A stretch of 31,778 bases of DNA from a virus, in IMG/VR virus record IMGVR_UViG_3300022845_000012, positions 1 through 31,778 of that record, one strand, 5' to 3'. Position 1 is the first letter of the stretch. Every line of letters starts with the position of its first letter. Shown one piece after another: positions 25,560-31,778 of the stretch. Below the pieces are notes generated by a model. It was not told the DNA's origin. It saw only the letters and a list, made by a program, of their open reading frames with translations, and did not search any database. Made by a program: the position numbers and the translations under genes.

Positions 25560-26012
25560 TTACGCCAGCTCGAAGTGCGGGCCGTCAATGAAGGGGCGCT
25601 TGCCCTCGCTCCGGCGCAAATCTACATAGGCGTTCATGGCTTGCTCCATTGTGCCGCTCCATTTGCGGATGTCTGGTATATGCCACGCGGCGCCCCAGCG
25701 CAGGACAGCACCCGTCTCTATGGCGGCCTCCTTCATGGCGTCGGCAAGGTCGTCATAGAGGTTCAGTTCCCACGAACCCCTGCTGCCAATGTAGGCCATT
25801 AGGTCAACGGCCTTGCCGTCCAAATGCTTGGAGCGCATGGTCTTGCTCGCACCTTTGTCGACTAGGACCCGCTGTTCCTCTATTGTACGGAGTCCGCAGA
25901 TCACACCAAAATCAATCTTCGTGGTCAGGATCGCCAGCTTCACAGTTGCCACGAGCTGTTCGTCTACACCCTGCAGGTTGCTCATGCTGCGCTCTGAAAG
26001 TCTAAAGCTCAT
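25560..26012 (-). CDS. Endolysin, M15-family L-Ala-D-Glu-type peptidase
   Basis: A 150-aa peptidoglycan-cleaving enzyme. The N-terminus MSFRLSERSMSNLQGVDEQL is typical of single-domain M15 (VanY/T5 endolysin-like) peptidases, and supports the start at ATG 26012 over the internal ATG 25985. Zinc ligands are seen as S-K-H63-LDGKAV-D70 and H146 in GPHFEL, with GLRTIEEQ and WGAAWHIPD as supporting conserved segments. No signal peptide, so it depends on the holin for release. The start overlaps the holin stop by 11 bp, and spanins follow, which makes a complete lysis cassette. Confidence 0.9.
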   Translation of the reverse strand: MSFRLSERSMSNLQGVDEQLVATVKLAILTTKIDFGVICGLRTIEEQRVLVDKGASKTMRSKHLDGKAVDLMAYIGSRGSWELNLYDDLADAMKEAAIETGAVLRWGAAWHIPDIRKWSGTMEQAMNAYVDLRRSEGKRPFIDGPHFELA

Positions 26013-26973: not shown

Positions 26974-27198
26974 TCACTTCCTCAAGTGCTGTTCTATATT
27001 GTCGAGCTTTTCCATCACTGCCTTAAAGGATTCCTTGACCTCTTTGAACTCACGGTCGTGGGCTTCCTTGGTCGCAGCAATTTGCGCCTTGATGACCGCA
27101 ATATCTGTCGTGTTCGTCTGCGCCTTGGTGTGCAGTAGCCATACGAATCCGGCCACTGGCGCTATGATCCACTGCATGATGGTGTTAAGCACGTCCAT
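26974..27198 (-). CDS. Small membrane protein with coiled coil (74 aa), lysis-associated
   Basis: The frame is open to 27378, but ATG 27198 starts MDVLNTIMQWIIAPVAGFVW, a membrane helix right at the N-terminus (about 4-23). The upstream extension is Arg-rich and overlaps the previous gene. Residues 33-72 form a coiled coil (IAVIKAQIAATKEAHDREF, EVKESFKAVMEKLDNIEQ). A single N-terminal transmembrane helix plus a coiled coil would suit a holin partner, a spanin-like factor or a small structural protein. It overlaps the heme-oxygenase-like gene end by 14 bp and is followed after 1 bp by the next gene. Confidence 0.65.
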   Translation of the reverse strand: MDVLNTIMQWIIAPVAGFVWLLHTKAQTNTTDIAVIKAQIAATKEAHDREFKEVKESFKAVMEKLDNIEQHLRK

Positions 27199-27697
27199 CG
27201 GTACGCTCCTTGATTTCATCCATGATGCGGAGAAGCGCGGTAAAGCAGTCGCGAGCCTCGGCAGCCAGTTCACTACGTACACGGTACGCTTTGAGTTCCT
27301 CAAGCGCCGCTTTGCGGTCATCCCACACGAGGTGAGAGGTCGGGTACCCTTCAAGGCGCCGTCGCATAATCTCGCCACCCATCAGGTGCGCACCGGTCAG
27401 CACGTATGCTGCCCCGGCGATCTTGTCGTCCGTGTCCAGAGACTCGGCGTATGCGTAGGCAGCAGGTACAGGCGTGCTGATGCGCCCCACTTCAGTGATG
27501 TCGTCTTCCAGCCGCGCGGTGCGGTGCAGAACCACAGGCAGCGTGGGGTCGATCTTGTGGTGGATGCGCTGGATCGCGTAGAGCCAGTCGCTGTACCAAT
27601 CCATAGGCGGCTTGCCAGACGCCATGGCAGCGCCCACGGGGTGTTCCTCGCAGGCGTGATGCTGGTCGCGCGTGGCTTCCCAGAGCGGCCTTGTCAT
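27185..27697 (-). CDS. Heme-oxygenase-like protein (170 aa)
   Basis: ATG 27697 overlaps the chaperone stop (ATGA), with AGAGG upstream. The N-terminus L-W-E-A-T-R-D-Q-H13-H-A-C-E matches the heme oxygenase pattern L-x-E-A-T-x3-H-x3-E, whose His is the proximal heme ligand. Next come YSDWLYAIQRIHHKID, then HRTARLEDDITE. The distal-helix equivalent is AAYVLTGAHLMGGEIMRRRL, with the G-x2-L-x-G-G signature of bacterial heme oxygenases. The length is slightly below the usual 190-240 aa. In the classic reaction heme is opened to biliverdin, Fe2+ and CO using reductant and O2. Cyanophages are known to carry heme oxygenase genes; here no bilin reductase is in the window. Activity is not proven; another heme-oxygenase-fold function is possible. 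Confidence 0.75.
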   Translation of the reverse strand: MTRPLWEATRDQHHACEEHPVGAAMASGKPPMDWYSDWLYAIQRIHHKIDPTLPVVLHRTARLEDDITEVGRISTPVPAAYAYAESLDTDDKIAGAAYVLTGAHLMGGEIMRRRLEGYPTSHLVWDDRKAALEELKAYRVRSELAAEARDCFTALLRIMDEIKERTDGRA

Positions 27698-28053
27698 GGG
27701 GCCTCTGGCCAGTTGATGTCCGTGGGAAAGCCGGCCTGCGCCGTGATGTCCCGCAGCGCTTGGCGGTAGGTAGCCCATGCAGCTTGATCCACGGGAGCGT
27801 CCGGGACTTGAGTCCAGTCTGATGCGGCAAGTAGGCCGTTGCGTTGCGCGCGGGCTTGGGCGGCGAGGGCTTCGAGATCAACAGGTGGTGCAACGTAAGG
27901 TGCCGCAGTTGCCTTGGCAGCGTTGAAAACCTGTGCGCCGATTGGCTCCACATCATTTGGGTCAGCGGTGAATGGTATCCAGCCGTGAGCGGGGTGCTGA
28001 ATCTCGCAGTCGATTGTCCCAAAAGCGTTGTATTGTGCGTTGCGGAAGTTCAT
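27694..28053 (-). CDS. Tail fibre assembly chaperone (APC-like), downstream copy (119 aa)
   Basis: ATG 28053, 1 bp after the fibre stop. The N-terminus (MNFRNAQYNAFGTIDCEIQHPAHGWIP in character) resembles small domains that start phage tail-assembly proteins and hold P-F-T-A-D-P-N-D. The C-terminal part has ALAAQARAQRNGLLAASDWTQ, then AAWATYRQALRDITAQAGFP and a final WPEAP. The R-x-x-R-N-x-L-L-x-x-x-D-W and YRQALRDI...GFP...WP pattern is the hallmark of phage tail assembly chaperone/APC domain proteins. It follows the collagen-like fibre gene directly and probably helps fold or trimerise it. A second copy lies at the right edge of the window. Confidence 0.8.
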   Translation of the reverse strand: MNFRNAQYNAFGTIDCEIQHPAHGWIPFTADPNDVEPIGAQVFNAAKATAAPYVAPPVDLEALAAQARAQRNGLLAASDWTQVPDAPVDQAAWATYRQALRDITAQAGFPTDINWPEAP

Positions 28054-28054
28054 A

Positions 28055-30406
28055 TCACGCTATCCTAACCCAAAGTGTGAAGACAGTCCTGCTATCGTAC
28101 TCAAGAACGGTATATGGCCCCATCAACCTCCAAGTGCCTGTAGGCGAGATATTAAAGGGGTTCCACCCGCCATTATTAAAAACTACATACAATAGGCTCG
28201 ACCCTGCCAAAGTGGTACCGAGGCCTCTAGGGGGTATGTTAAAGCCACTCTCCCCCAAAAGGGCATAACTGTTGACGGCTCCAGCGGGAGGGGCAGTTGC
28301 TGTACCAGACGTACCCTGCGGACCCTGCGGACCCTGCACACCTTGTGGGCCCTGCGGACCAGACGTACCCTGCGGACCCTGCGGACCTGTACCCTGCGGA
28401 CCCTGCGGACCCTGCGGACCAGTTGGGCCGGTCGAACCACCAGTGCCGTTAAGGCCAGATGGACCAGTTGGGCCTGCGGGGCCTGCGACTGTAGAGTTCG
28501 CGCCTTGGGGGCCTGTCGGACCTGTCGGACCATTACCGGCTACACCCTGCGGGCCTTGCGAACCAGTGGGGCCAGTTGCGCCGGTAGGGCCACCGCCGGT
28601 AGGACCTGTCACACCCGTCGGGCCTTGCGGGCCAGTTGGGCCAGTGGCCCCTGTGCCCGTTGCACCGGTCGAACCTGTCGGACCCGTGGGACCGAACGTA
28701 CCTTGTGTACCCTGAATACCTTGCGGACCAGTGGGGCCCGCTGCGCCGAGCGCACCGGATGTACCTTGGATACCCTGTGGGCCAGTGGGACCAACCGCAC
28801 CGAGTGTACCGTCTATGCCCTGCGGGCCGCTTGGGCCGGTCGGACCTGCGAGACCTTGGAGACCACGGGGGCCGGTTGGGCCTTGTGGGCCGACGATCTG
28901 GCCAGCATTATTCCAAGCCGAACCGTCCCAGATGTACAGATCACCGGATGCCTGCACGATGATGGCATCGTTAAGTGTGTTGCCTGTAGGCGGCAGGTCA
29001 CCAACAGTGGCGACCTCGCCAACAAAATTGATCGAGGTACCTTGAGGACCCTCTGAACCAGTCGGTCCGGTGTTACCCTGCGGACCTGTCGGACCTGCTA
29101 CACCAATCGAACCTGTCGGGCCGCTGAGGCCAGTACTACCCTGAGTACCTTGAATACCTTGAATACCCTGCACGCCTTGCGCACCGGTTGGACCTGTCGG
29201 GCCGGCAACCGTAGAAGCACCACCCGCAGCACCTGCGGCTCCGGTCGGACCAGTCGCACCAGTCGAACCCGTTGGGCCCTTGAGGCCGGGTGTACCTGTC
29301 GGACCTGTAGGACCAGCGGCAGTTGACGCATCACCCTGCGGACCAGTGGGCCCTGTGGCCCCGTCAGCGCCAGCGGCGCCGGTCAGGCCCTGTGGCCCAG
29401 TGGGGCCCTGCGGGCCAACGATTTGCCCGACGTTATCCCACGCTGCGCCATCCCATACGTAGAGGTCGCCATCAGCAGTGACGATGTAAGCGTCGTTGAT
29501 GACATTGTCGACAGCAGGTAGGTCACCGACAGTGGCGACCTCACCCTTAAATGTGATGGATGTACCCTGCGGGCCTTGCGACCCTGTTGGTCCAGTCGGA
29601 CCTTGGGTTCCGGTTGGGCCTGTTACACCTTGCGGTCCAGTTGGACCGGCCTGTGTAGAAGCTGCGCCTGTTGGACCAGTAGTACCGATGTCGCCCGTTG
29701 GGCCAGTTGGGCCTGTTATGCCGTCGAGTCCAGCGCCGCCCTGCGCACCAGTTGGGCCTACCTCACCCTGAATACCCTGCGCGCCAGTGTCGCCTTGAAT
29801 ACCTTGTACACCCTGTGGACCAGTGGGGCCGAGTGGGCCCTGCACCGTTGAGTCTGCACCCGTAGGACCAGTAGGGCCCTGCGGGCCGACGATCTGGCCG
29901 ACGTTGACCCACGCGGCTCCGTCCCAGACGTAGAGGTTACCATCGGCAGTGACGATGTACGCGTCGTTTGCCGCAGCACCAGCAGGCAGATCACCGACGG
30001 TGGCGACCTGACCCAGAAAAGAGATGGACGTACCCTGCACACCCTGCGCACCTTGCGGGCCGGTGGGGCCAGCGACAGTCGAGTCAGCGCCTGTGTCGCC
30101 TGTGAGGCCCTGCGGACCGGTAGGCCCTTGGATACCCTGCACGCCTTGCACACCTTGGATACCTTGCGGACCAGTCGCGCCCGTGTCGCCTGTGAGGCCA
30201 GTAAGGCCTGTGTCGCCAACGGGGCCAACGATCCCGCCATATGGCAGGCTGAGATACGCGTTCACCCCATCCCCGATTTTGAACTGGTTCGTGTCTGTCT
30301 CAAGGACAATCTCCCGGTCCGCAAGAACCGGGTTAAACTCAGTCCAACGGCCGAGCGTGTCACCGCGCAGTGCGAAGCCAATCGTGGAGGATGGGGTGAT
30401 GGGCAT
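28055..30406 (-). CDS. Collagen-like tail fibre/receptor-binding protein (783 aa)
   Basis: ATG 30406, 2 bp after the glycosyltransferase stop. Residues 1-65 ([20 protein letters not shown], then [21 protein letters not shown]) match the N-terminal attachment domain of phage fibres and Mtd-like proteins. From about 65 to 700 there are long runs of G-x-y triplets dominated by GPT, GPQ and GVQ, which should form a collagen triple helix. These are interrupted by three related 50-residue modules starting GTSI and ending VGQIVGPQG or AGQIVGPQG. The C-terminal 80 residues ([17 protein letters not shown], then [17 protein letters not shown] and WVRIA) form a beta-rich tip, the likely receptor-contact or trimerisation domain. 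The neighbouring glycosyltransferase suggests that Thr in GPT may be sugar-modified. Confidence 0.85.
28888..29042 (-). repeat. Fibre interruption module, copy 3 (C-terminal-most)
   Basis: A non-collagen module of about 50 residues: [18 protein letters not shown], a variable loop, [20 protein letters not shown], then AGQIVGPQG. It is related to the copies at about 29409-29566 and 29886-30034 and the most divergent of the three. Confidence 0.75.
29409..29566 (-). repeat. Fibre interruption module, copy 2
   Basis: A module with [18 protein letters not shown], a loop with [25 protein letters not shown] and VGQIVGPQG. It is nearly identical to copy 1 in its second half, so a recent duplication or gene conversion is likely. 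Confidence 0.75.
29886..30034 (-). repeat. Fibre interruption module, copy 1 (N-terminal-most)
   Basis: A module with [39 protein letters not shown] and VGQIVGPQG. It occurs between collagen segments and may act as a hinge, trimer-register clamp or lectin-like side domain. Confidence 0.75.
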
Positions 30407-30408
30407 TC

Positions 30409-31473
30409 TCAGGCCGCCTTATCGAGGGAGTAGAACTCCAAGTTACGCTTCAACCGCTCGTCGCCGGGTTCAAGGTCCACTGCGAGCGTGCCGTGCTCGA
30501 CGGCTTCCTCTTGCTCCCCAAGGTGGTAGGCTGCCAGCGCAAGTAGATCATGCGGCTTTGCCCCCCAGACACTCGGGTCCATCGTATAGACCAAGGCTTT
30601 GTCCTTGATCGTCAGCGCCTGTTTAGCACAGTCGTAGCTAAGCTGCCACTGTTCTGTTTTGCGGGCGATGTCGGCCAGCTCGACCCACGGCTCGCGGGTG
30701 TTGGGGGCTTCCTTGGTCGCCTTGTCCAGCCAGACTTGCGCTTGTGCTTTGTCGCCCAGTGCCTCATAGGCTTGGGCCATGACACGCATGGCGTAGCACC
30801 GCTCGTTCGCCCAGTTGGCGTTCGGGTTTTCGAGGTACTTGTGCAGCGCCACAATGGAGTCGACCCACCGGCGGCTGAACGTCAGCTCGCGGGCGTAATA
30901 GAACGCGTTGCGCGGACAGGCCGGGTCTTCCTTCACCGATAGCTCCAGCAGGTCTATGTACTGGCCACGACTCTTGGTTGGATCGGGGTGGTGGCTTACC
31001 AGCAGCATGTCAGTGTGGGCGTAGACCTCGTCGATCCGCGCGTCTGGGCGGGGGTACTCGTGGCACGGGTGGTGCCAGTGGTAGCCGTGACGTGCGTGAA
31101 TCTTCTCATAGAAGAACTCGATGCCTGCGCCCCAGTCGAACTTGTAACGCAGCCGGGTGGTCTCATCCATCTTCCATACGCGCTCGATCTCCTCACGCCA
31201 GCCGGGTTCCAGCCGCTCGTCAAGGTCAAGGCTGATACACACGTCGATGTCGCGGGGGATCAGCGCAAGCGCTGCGTCACGGGCTTTGTCGAACCGCCAC
31301 GGGGTGATGCAGATTTCAGGCACGGTCGCGCCGCACGCGCGGGCGAGCTCGACGGTCTCGTCGGTGCTGCCGGTGTCGGCAATAAGGATCAGGTCCGCAT
31401 CTTGTGCGGACTCACAGAACTGCTCGACAAACGAAGCCTCGTTCTTGCTGATGGCGTATACGCAGATTTTCAT
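30409..31473 (-). CDS. GT2-family glycosyltransferase with TPR-like C-terminus (354 aa)
   Basis: ATG 31473 with GGGAGAG upstream, 3 bp after the chaperone stop. The N-terminal GT-A domain has [31 protein letters not shown], and the metal/sugar-nucleotide-binding D83-L-D85-E in [20 protein letters not shown] lies further on. After about residue 180 come helical repeats with TPR character ([81 protein letters not shown]). This GT2+TPR layout is known from protein and glycan transferases, in which the TPR can bind a protein acceptor. It lies directly upstream of the GPT-rich collagen fibre, so that fibre is the obvious candidate acceptor. The acceptor is inference. Confidence 0.85.
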
Positions 31474-31476
31474 ATG

Positions 31477-31778
31477 TCACTCTCCCGGTTTGGTTGGCCA
31501 CTCGATGGTGTAGGGGAAGCCCCCTTGGGAGGTTATGTCACGGAGCGCCTGCCGATAGGAAGCCCATTCGGTTGTGATGGTGTTGTCGCTCAGGGCCATC
31601 CAGTCACTGTCCGACAGCAGTTGGTTGCGTTTGGCTCTAACTCTTGCAGAGGATGCATTGTAATAATTTTGTTTTTCCTCTGGTGTCTTTTCGACAACCG
31701 ACCACTCAAGATGCCACTTGTCACCTGCATAGGTGGGCGTGTCTGCTCGAACGGCTCTGTAGGTCGTTTCGTCGATGG
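31477..31778 (-). CDS. Partial tail fibre assembly chaperone (APC-like), upstream copy
   Basis: A minus-strand frame enters from the right edge and stops with TGA at 31477-31479, leaving about 100 visible residues; the start is outside the window. The C-terminus has RAKRNQLLSDSDWMALSD, then EWASYRQALRDITSQGGFP and IEWPTKPGE. This is clearly the same domain as the 119-aa chaperone at 27694-28053 (R-N-x-L-L-x-x-S-D-W, YRQALRDIT-x-Q-x-GFP, WP). The visible N-terminal part (RAVRADTPTYAGDKWHLEWSV then VVEKTPEEKQ) differs from that of the other copy. It probably serves a fibre gene further right. Confidence 0.8.
   Translation of the reverse strand, partial: IDETTYRAVRADTPTYAGDKWHLEWSVVEKTPEEKQNYYNASSARVRAKRNQLLSDSDWMALSDNTITTEWASYRQALRDITSQGGFPYTIEWPTKPGE

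Follow-up and report, generated by a model that had tools for sequence, protein, structure and literature searches.

A putative phage-borne heme oxygenase family that recurs next to tail-fibre modules in unrelated phages

Heme oxygenases (HOs) are enzymes that open heme and free its iron. The stretch of viral DNA analysed here (31,778 nucleotides, hereafter the window) very probably encodes a putative heme-binding relative of these enzymes, as judged from sequence comparison and predicted structure. The protein very probably belongs to a new phage-borne HO family, whose gene recurs immediately after the tail-fibre genes in unrelated phages, well away from the pigment genes that normally go with phage HOs. 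Among the papers searched there was no report of this fibre-linked family. HO homology, an HO fold and kept heme-ligand and heme-anchoring positions were all obtained computationally. The family is a member of the HO superfamily, which we file as a variant because the canonical Gly-Asp feature of the distal helix is replaced.

The gene occupies positions 27185–27697 on the minus strand, reading from 27697 to 27185 (the same positions on the plus strand hold another frame). It encodes 170 amino acids and is recognized by its motifs and by profile and fold matches, its own Pfam score lying below the cut-off. The preliminary description had proposed an HO-like gene here from a proximal signature (L-x-E-A-T-x3-H-x3-E) and a distal one (G-x2-L-x-G-G). 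Both are present, the former as LWEATRDQHHACE (with Leu5, Glu7, Ala8, Thr9, His13 and Glu17) and the latter as GAHLMGG (with Gly102, Leu105, Gly107 and Gly108), and the proposal is borne out by Pfam and profile homology, an AlphaFold match and purifying selection. The gene is translationally coupled to a tail fibre assembly chaperone (Phage_tail_APC; 27694–28053, minus strand), the start ATG sharing bases with the chaperone’s stop codon in the ATGA overlap already described. Further upstream, on the same strand, lie a collagen-like tail fibre with an Mtd_N-type N-terminal domain and many Gly-x-y repeats (28055–30406) and a glycosyltransferase/TPR protein (phrog_13126; 30409–31473), which often adjoins the fibre in related loci. 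Downstream come small membrane-type genes and an M15-type endolysin (25560–26012, minus strand) that marks the lysis block; a 74-residue protein with a hydrophobic N-terminal stretch (26974–27198, minus strand; start placed from the homologue L063) shares 14 bases with the end of the HO-like gene. The reported position between tail fibre and lysis genes is therefore real, and it recurs in unrelated phages. Two tail-chaperone-like genes (27694–28053 and 31477–31776), alike at their C-terminal ends (WASYRQALRDIT and WATYRQALRDIT), lie on either side of the fibre and glycosyltransferase genes, a hint that a fibre unit was duplicated or exchanged.

Taken singly, the window protein scores below the cut-off of the Pfam family Heme_oxygenase, PF01126 (E 0.047, 13.9 bits; cut-off 23). 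Its relative L047 lies above it (27.7 bits), family members reach E 1.8e-6, and 31 of 37 aligned members match the same model. A profile built from 32 members and searched against the PDB picked up the human enzymes HO-2 and HO-1 (E 8e-4 to 1e-3), and hhalign of the family profile against five canonical HOs gave 95.9% (E 5.4e-9, 165 columns). The gene is under purifying selection, with dN/dS of 0.06–0.13 in family pairs whose dS is 0.5–1.7. Searches of PHROGs, NCBIfam and INPHARED (tblastn with two members as queries) returned no relatives, and Synechocystis HO-1 used as a seed in IMG/VR found nothing.

Structure prediction, proposed earlier as the check on this assignment, agrees with the profiles. 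The AlphaFold2 model of the window protein (pLDDT 94.2, pTM 0.89) and that of a distant Rhodobacteraceae relative (pLDDT 93.4) both adopt the all-helical HO fold, and among the 50 Foldseek matches listed for each against the PDB there are only HOs, with TM-scores by query of up to 0.83 and 0.79, respectively. No different fold emerged. The closest viral structures are two uncharacterized, HO-annotated proteins of uncultured Caudovirales, A0A6J5RJ96 and A0A6J5KN38 (TM 0.85 and 0.87; length 175–189), which, compared by structure and identity, share about 20% identity with the window protein. Fold, profile homology and selection together rule out a chance motif.

Residues were paired with those of HO-1 by profile alignment, that is, from sequence. 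On the proximal side, His13 corresponds to the heme ligand His25, Glu17 to Glu29 and Arg10 to Lys22; further pairs are Asp50/Glu62, Asp66/Asp92, Tyr98/Tyr134, Gly107-Gly108/Gly143-Gly144 and Arg139/Arg183. His13, Glu17, Asp50, Asp66, Tyr98, Gly107-Gly108 and Arg139 are invariant in all 50 non-redundant representatives (95% identity), as are Ala103, His104 and His46, although part of this invariance is biased by the HHACE.H and GAH..GG segments contained in the seeds used to find the loci; the seeds did not extend to His46, Asp50, Asp66, Tyr98, His122 or Arg139. Arg10 is kept except in two representatives with Lys. A locus recovered by profile search with no motif seed (L202) keeps His13, Glu17, Tyr98, Ala-His, Gly-Gly and Arg139 and is without His14, Cys16 and His46; with one in-frame TGA reported, it may be decaying. 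Loss of the His and Gly motif across close homologues, which would have spoken against the assignment, was thus seen in none of the 50.

Not everything in the first reading stood, however. The fold, the proximal His and the Gly-rich distal helix hold, but the distal pocket departs from the canonical enzymes in ways that had gone unnoticed: Gly139-Asp140 is replaced by Ala103-His104 (Ala-His in 50/50, the Gly143-Gly144 part being kept) and Tyr58 by His46. In addition, Arg136 becomes Leu100 and Lys18 becomes Trp6. Among the propionate positions, Tyr98 and Arg139 are invariant and that of Lys18 is occupied by Trp, Tyr or Phe, an assignment made by alignment. Pseudomonadota HOs carry Y-V-x-E-G-S-x-L-G-G in the distal helix, so the register is not firm and this helix could be aligned one residue differently. 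The invariant His, Glu and Asp residues on pocket-lining helices (His13, Glu17, His46, Asp50 and His104) might instead form a non-heme metal site, as in HO-like di-iron oxidases. We regard this as very improbable, given that neither the propionate positions (Tyr98, Arg139) nor the Gly-Gly kink vary, that the PDB matches listed are true HOs only, and that classical HOs also have acidic residues where Glu17, Asp50 and Asp66 stand.

Canonical HOs (PF01126; human HO-1 and HO-2, HmuO and Synechocystis HO-1) share with the phage family the fold, the order of helices, the proximal His and the equivalents of Glu29, Tyr134, Arg183 and Gly143-Gly144, yet the phage proteins are 30–50 residues shorter and 14–19% identical to them. 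A parallel for the distal helix comes from plant HO-1, which is an active enzyme. In soybean GmHO-1, Ala149-His150 and Gly153 are spaced from Tyr144 as Ala103-His104 and Gly107 are from Tyr98, and these natural residues serve an alternative hydrogen-bond network (PMC7948506). The substitution of Gly-Asp is therefore not by itself an argument against activity, even though Asp140His strongly lowers that of human HO-1 (cited in PMC7948506). In plant HO-1 an inserted region displaces the proximal His, which also has different bonding (PMC7948506), whereas in the phage family its spacing is canonical and its Glu partner is retained. Phage HemO, both of cyanophages and of the hemO-pcyA/X-alaS cassettes (P-SSM2, S-SSM6a; PMC11480375), is likewise a phage-encoded member of the superfamily. 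Cyanophage HOs, however, are canonical, with a Gly-Asp-Leu-Ser-Gly-Gly distal motif that the fibre-linked family does not have, and HemO in these cassettes adjoins a bilin reductase (PMC11480375), a partner absent here. That no bilin gene is in view holds well beyond the window: among 44 carrier contigs none encodes a bilin reductase (PF05996), the linked ferredoxin-dependent enzyme of phage bilin cassettes (hemO with pcyA, pcyX or pebS). A linked plant-type ferredoxin as electron donor was likewise absent from all 44. These absences are not final, since every one of the contigs is a fragment or of uncertain completeness.

Relatives are encoded by at least 128 stretches in IMG/VR; a first scan gave 61, a wider one 128 and a third 147, near-copies included, with the best 80 of each listed for the last two. 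A first scan of genome contigs returned no relatives, and three loci, all in Rhodobacteraceae, came from a broader scan (two prophage-like, one bare contig). The gene is rare in cells, being present in two of the 296 genomes sampled from the family to which the Aliiroseovarius genome belongs. In Aliiroseovarius sp. S1123 and Roseovarius sp. TE539 (L195:1116-15878 and L194) it sits within a GTA/phiJL001-like tail module, in the former locus in the order tape measure, DUF2460, fibre, fibre, DUF4376, HO-like gene, Gp84-type hub and GTA_TIM hub. A further copy (L109:10001-10502) has a frame break near codon 20, from either sequencing error or decay.

With near-copies removed, a tail-fibre module immediately precedes the gene in 37 of the 48 informative representatives; fibre matches made via one cluster are loose because it contains collagen repeats, and those via cassette clusters c2/c3 are independent of it. 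Start/stop overlaps with the upstream gene recur (1 or 4 bases). The fibre-linked setting spans a podovirus-like backbone with the phrog_511 internal virion protein (the window, L113, L115, L122 and L124), a T4-like backbone with gp23 (L088, L097, L107 and L110) and, as a third, the GTA/phiJL001-like tail module of the Rhodobacteraceae genomes. A recurrent fibre cassette with a conserved c3 protein of about 140 residues was observed in L188, L097, L101 and L195; this protein has no match in Pfam, PHROG or INPHARED. The recurrence of the fibre module across three backbones, the repeated overlaps and the altered distal pocket, in which the invariant His46 and His104 might ligate iron, would all suit an HO-fold protein that binds heme without turnover, as a heme-carrying or redox-sensing partner of the tail fibre (a virion component, a fibre maturation factor, or a heme bait for a host heme receptor). 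We nonetheless consider this unlikely: the HO-like protein is far more conserved than adhesins, and in a T4-like branch the gene is not beside fibres but has RNase H-like, YkuD and Dps genes nearby. Nor are iron-binding HxH motifs, the basis of the Ferrojan/Trojan Horse idea (PMC11705849), enriched in the neighbouring fibres (2 observed against 1.2 expected).

Seven representatives have the gene in a setting other than the fibre-linked one, and five of them form a single clade in which RNase H-like, YkuD and Dps/ferritin genes follow it; one locus of the clade (L074) carries gp23. Mapping the two settings onto the tree takes two changes, compared with 6.7 for shuffled labels. T4-like loci with Dps/ferritin-like, L,D-transpeptidase and RNase H-like genes nearby include L012, L014, L017, L025, L068-L070, L078 and L082-L084. 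Such neighbours raise the idea of iron handling, in which the enzyme would free heme iron and ferritin-like proteins of phage or host would store it. In the main T4-like clade, each of the five representatives does have a Dps/ferritin gene (PF00210) 1.5–3 kb downstream, and the domain occurs in 6 of 44 carrier contigs, but the other 38, above all the fibre-linked ones, are without it, as are L071-L074 of the same clade. We therefore hold this iron-handling account to be distinctly improbable.

The reading we prefer, to which we give a probability of roughly 60% from sequence and models, is that of a late-expressed, small, phage-specific, non-canonical HO that acts on host heme without a bilin pathway. 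The protein would be made late, together with the tail fibres, and would bind heme via His13 between the proximal helix (residues 5–18) and the distal helix (90–106). His104 and His46 may stand in for Asp140 and Tyr58 in organizing the distal water network, by analogy with Ala149-His150 in plant HO-1. Electrons would come from a reductase or ferredoxin that hosts could supply, and host heme would be opened to biliverdin, CO and Fe2+. As the carriers have no bilin reductase, the benefit probably lies in heme removal or iron release while virions are assembled, and not in pigment. The gene's location after the fibre module would reflect its late expression and its co-transfer within a mobile fibre cassette. 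The effect of Asp140His in human HO-1, the aromatic residue at the Lys18 position and the want of a contig-encoded plant-type ferredoxin count against this reading, as does the alignment-based register of the distal helix.

Characterized phage HOs belong to bilin (pigment) contexts, and the fibre-linked family is separate from these, strongly conserved and without bilin genes. It offers a natural test of Ala-His in place of Gly-Asp in the distal helix, an exchange that weakens human HO-1 and is normal in plants. It is doubtful, though conceivable, that the HO-fold protein is a heme-binding working part of the fibre module in many phages, serving maturation, adsorption or recognition of heme-uptake receptors; if so, there would be a link between heme chemistry and how the phage recognizes its host. 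A family that accompanies fibre cassettes in three phage types, and occurs in Rhodobacteraceae genomes as well, raises the question of what a phage gains from opening or holding heme.
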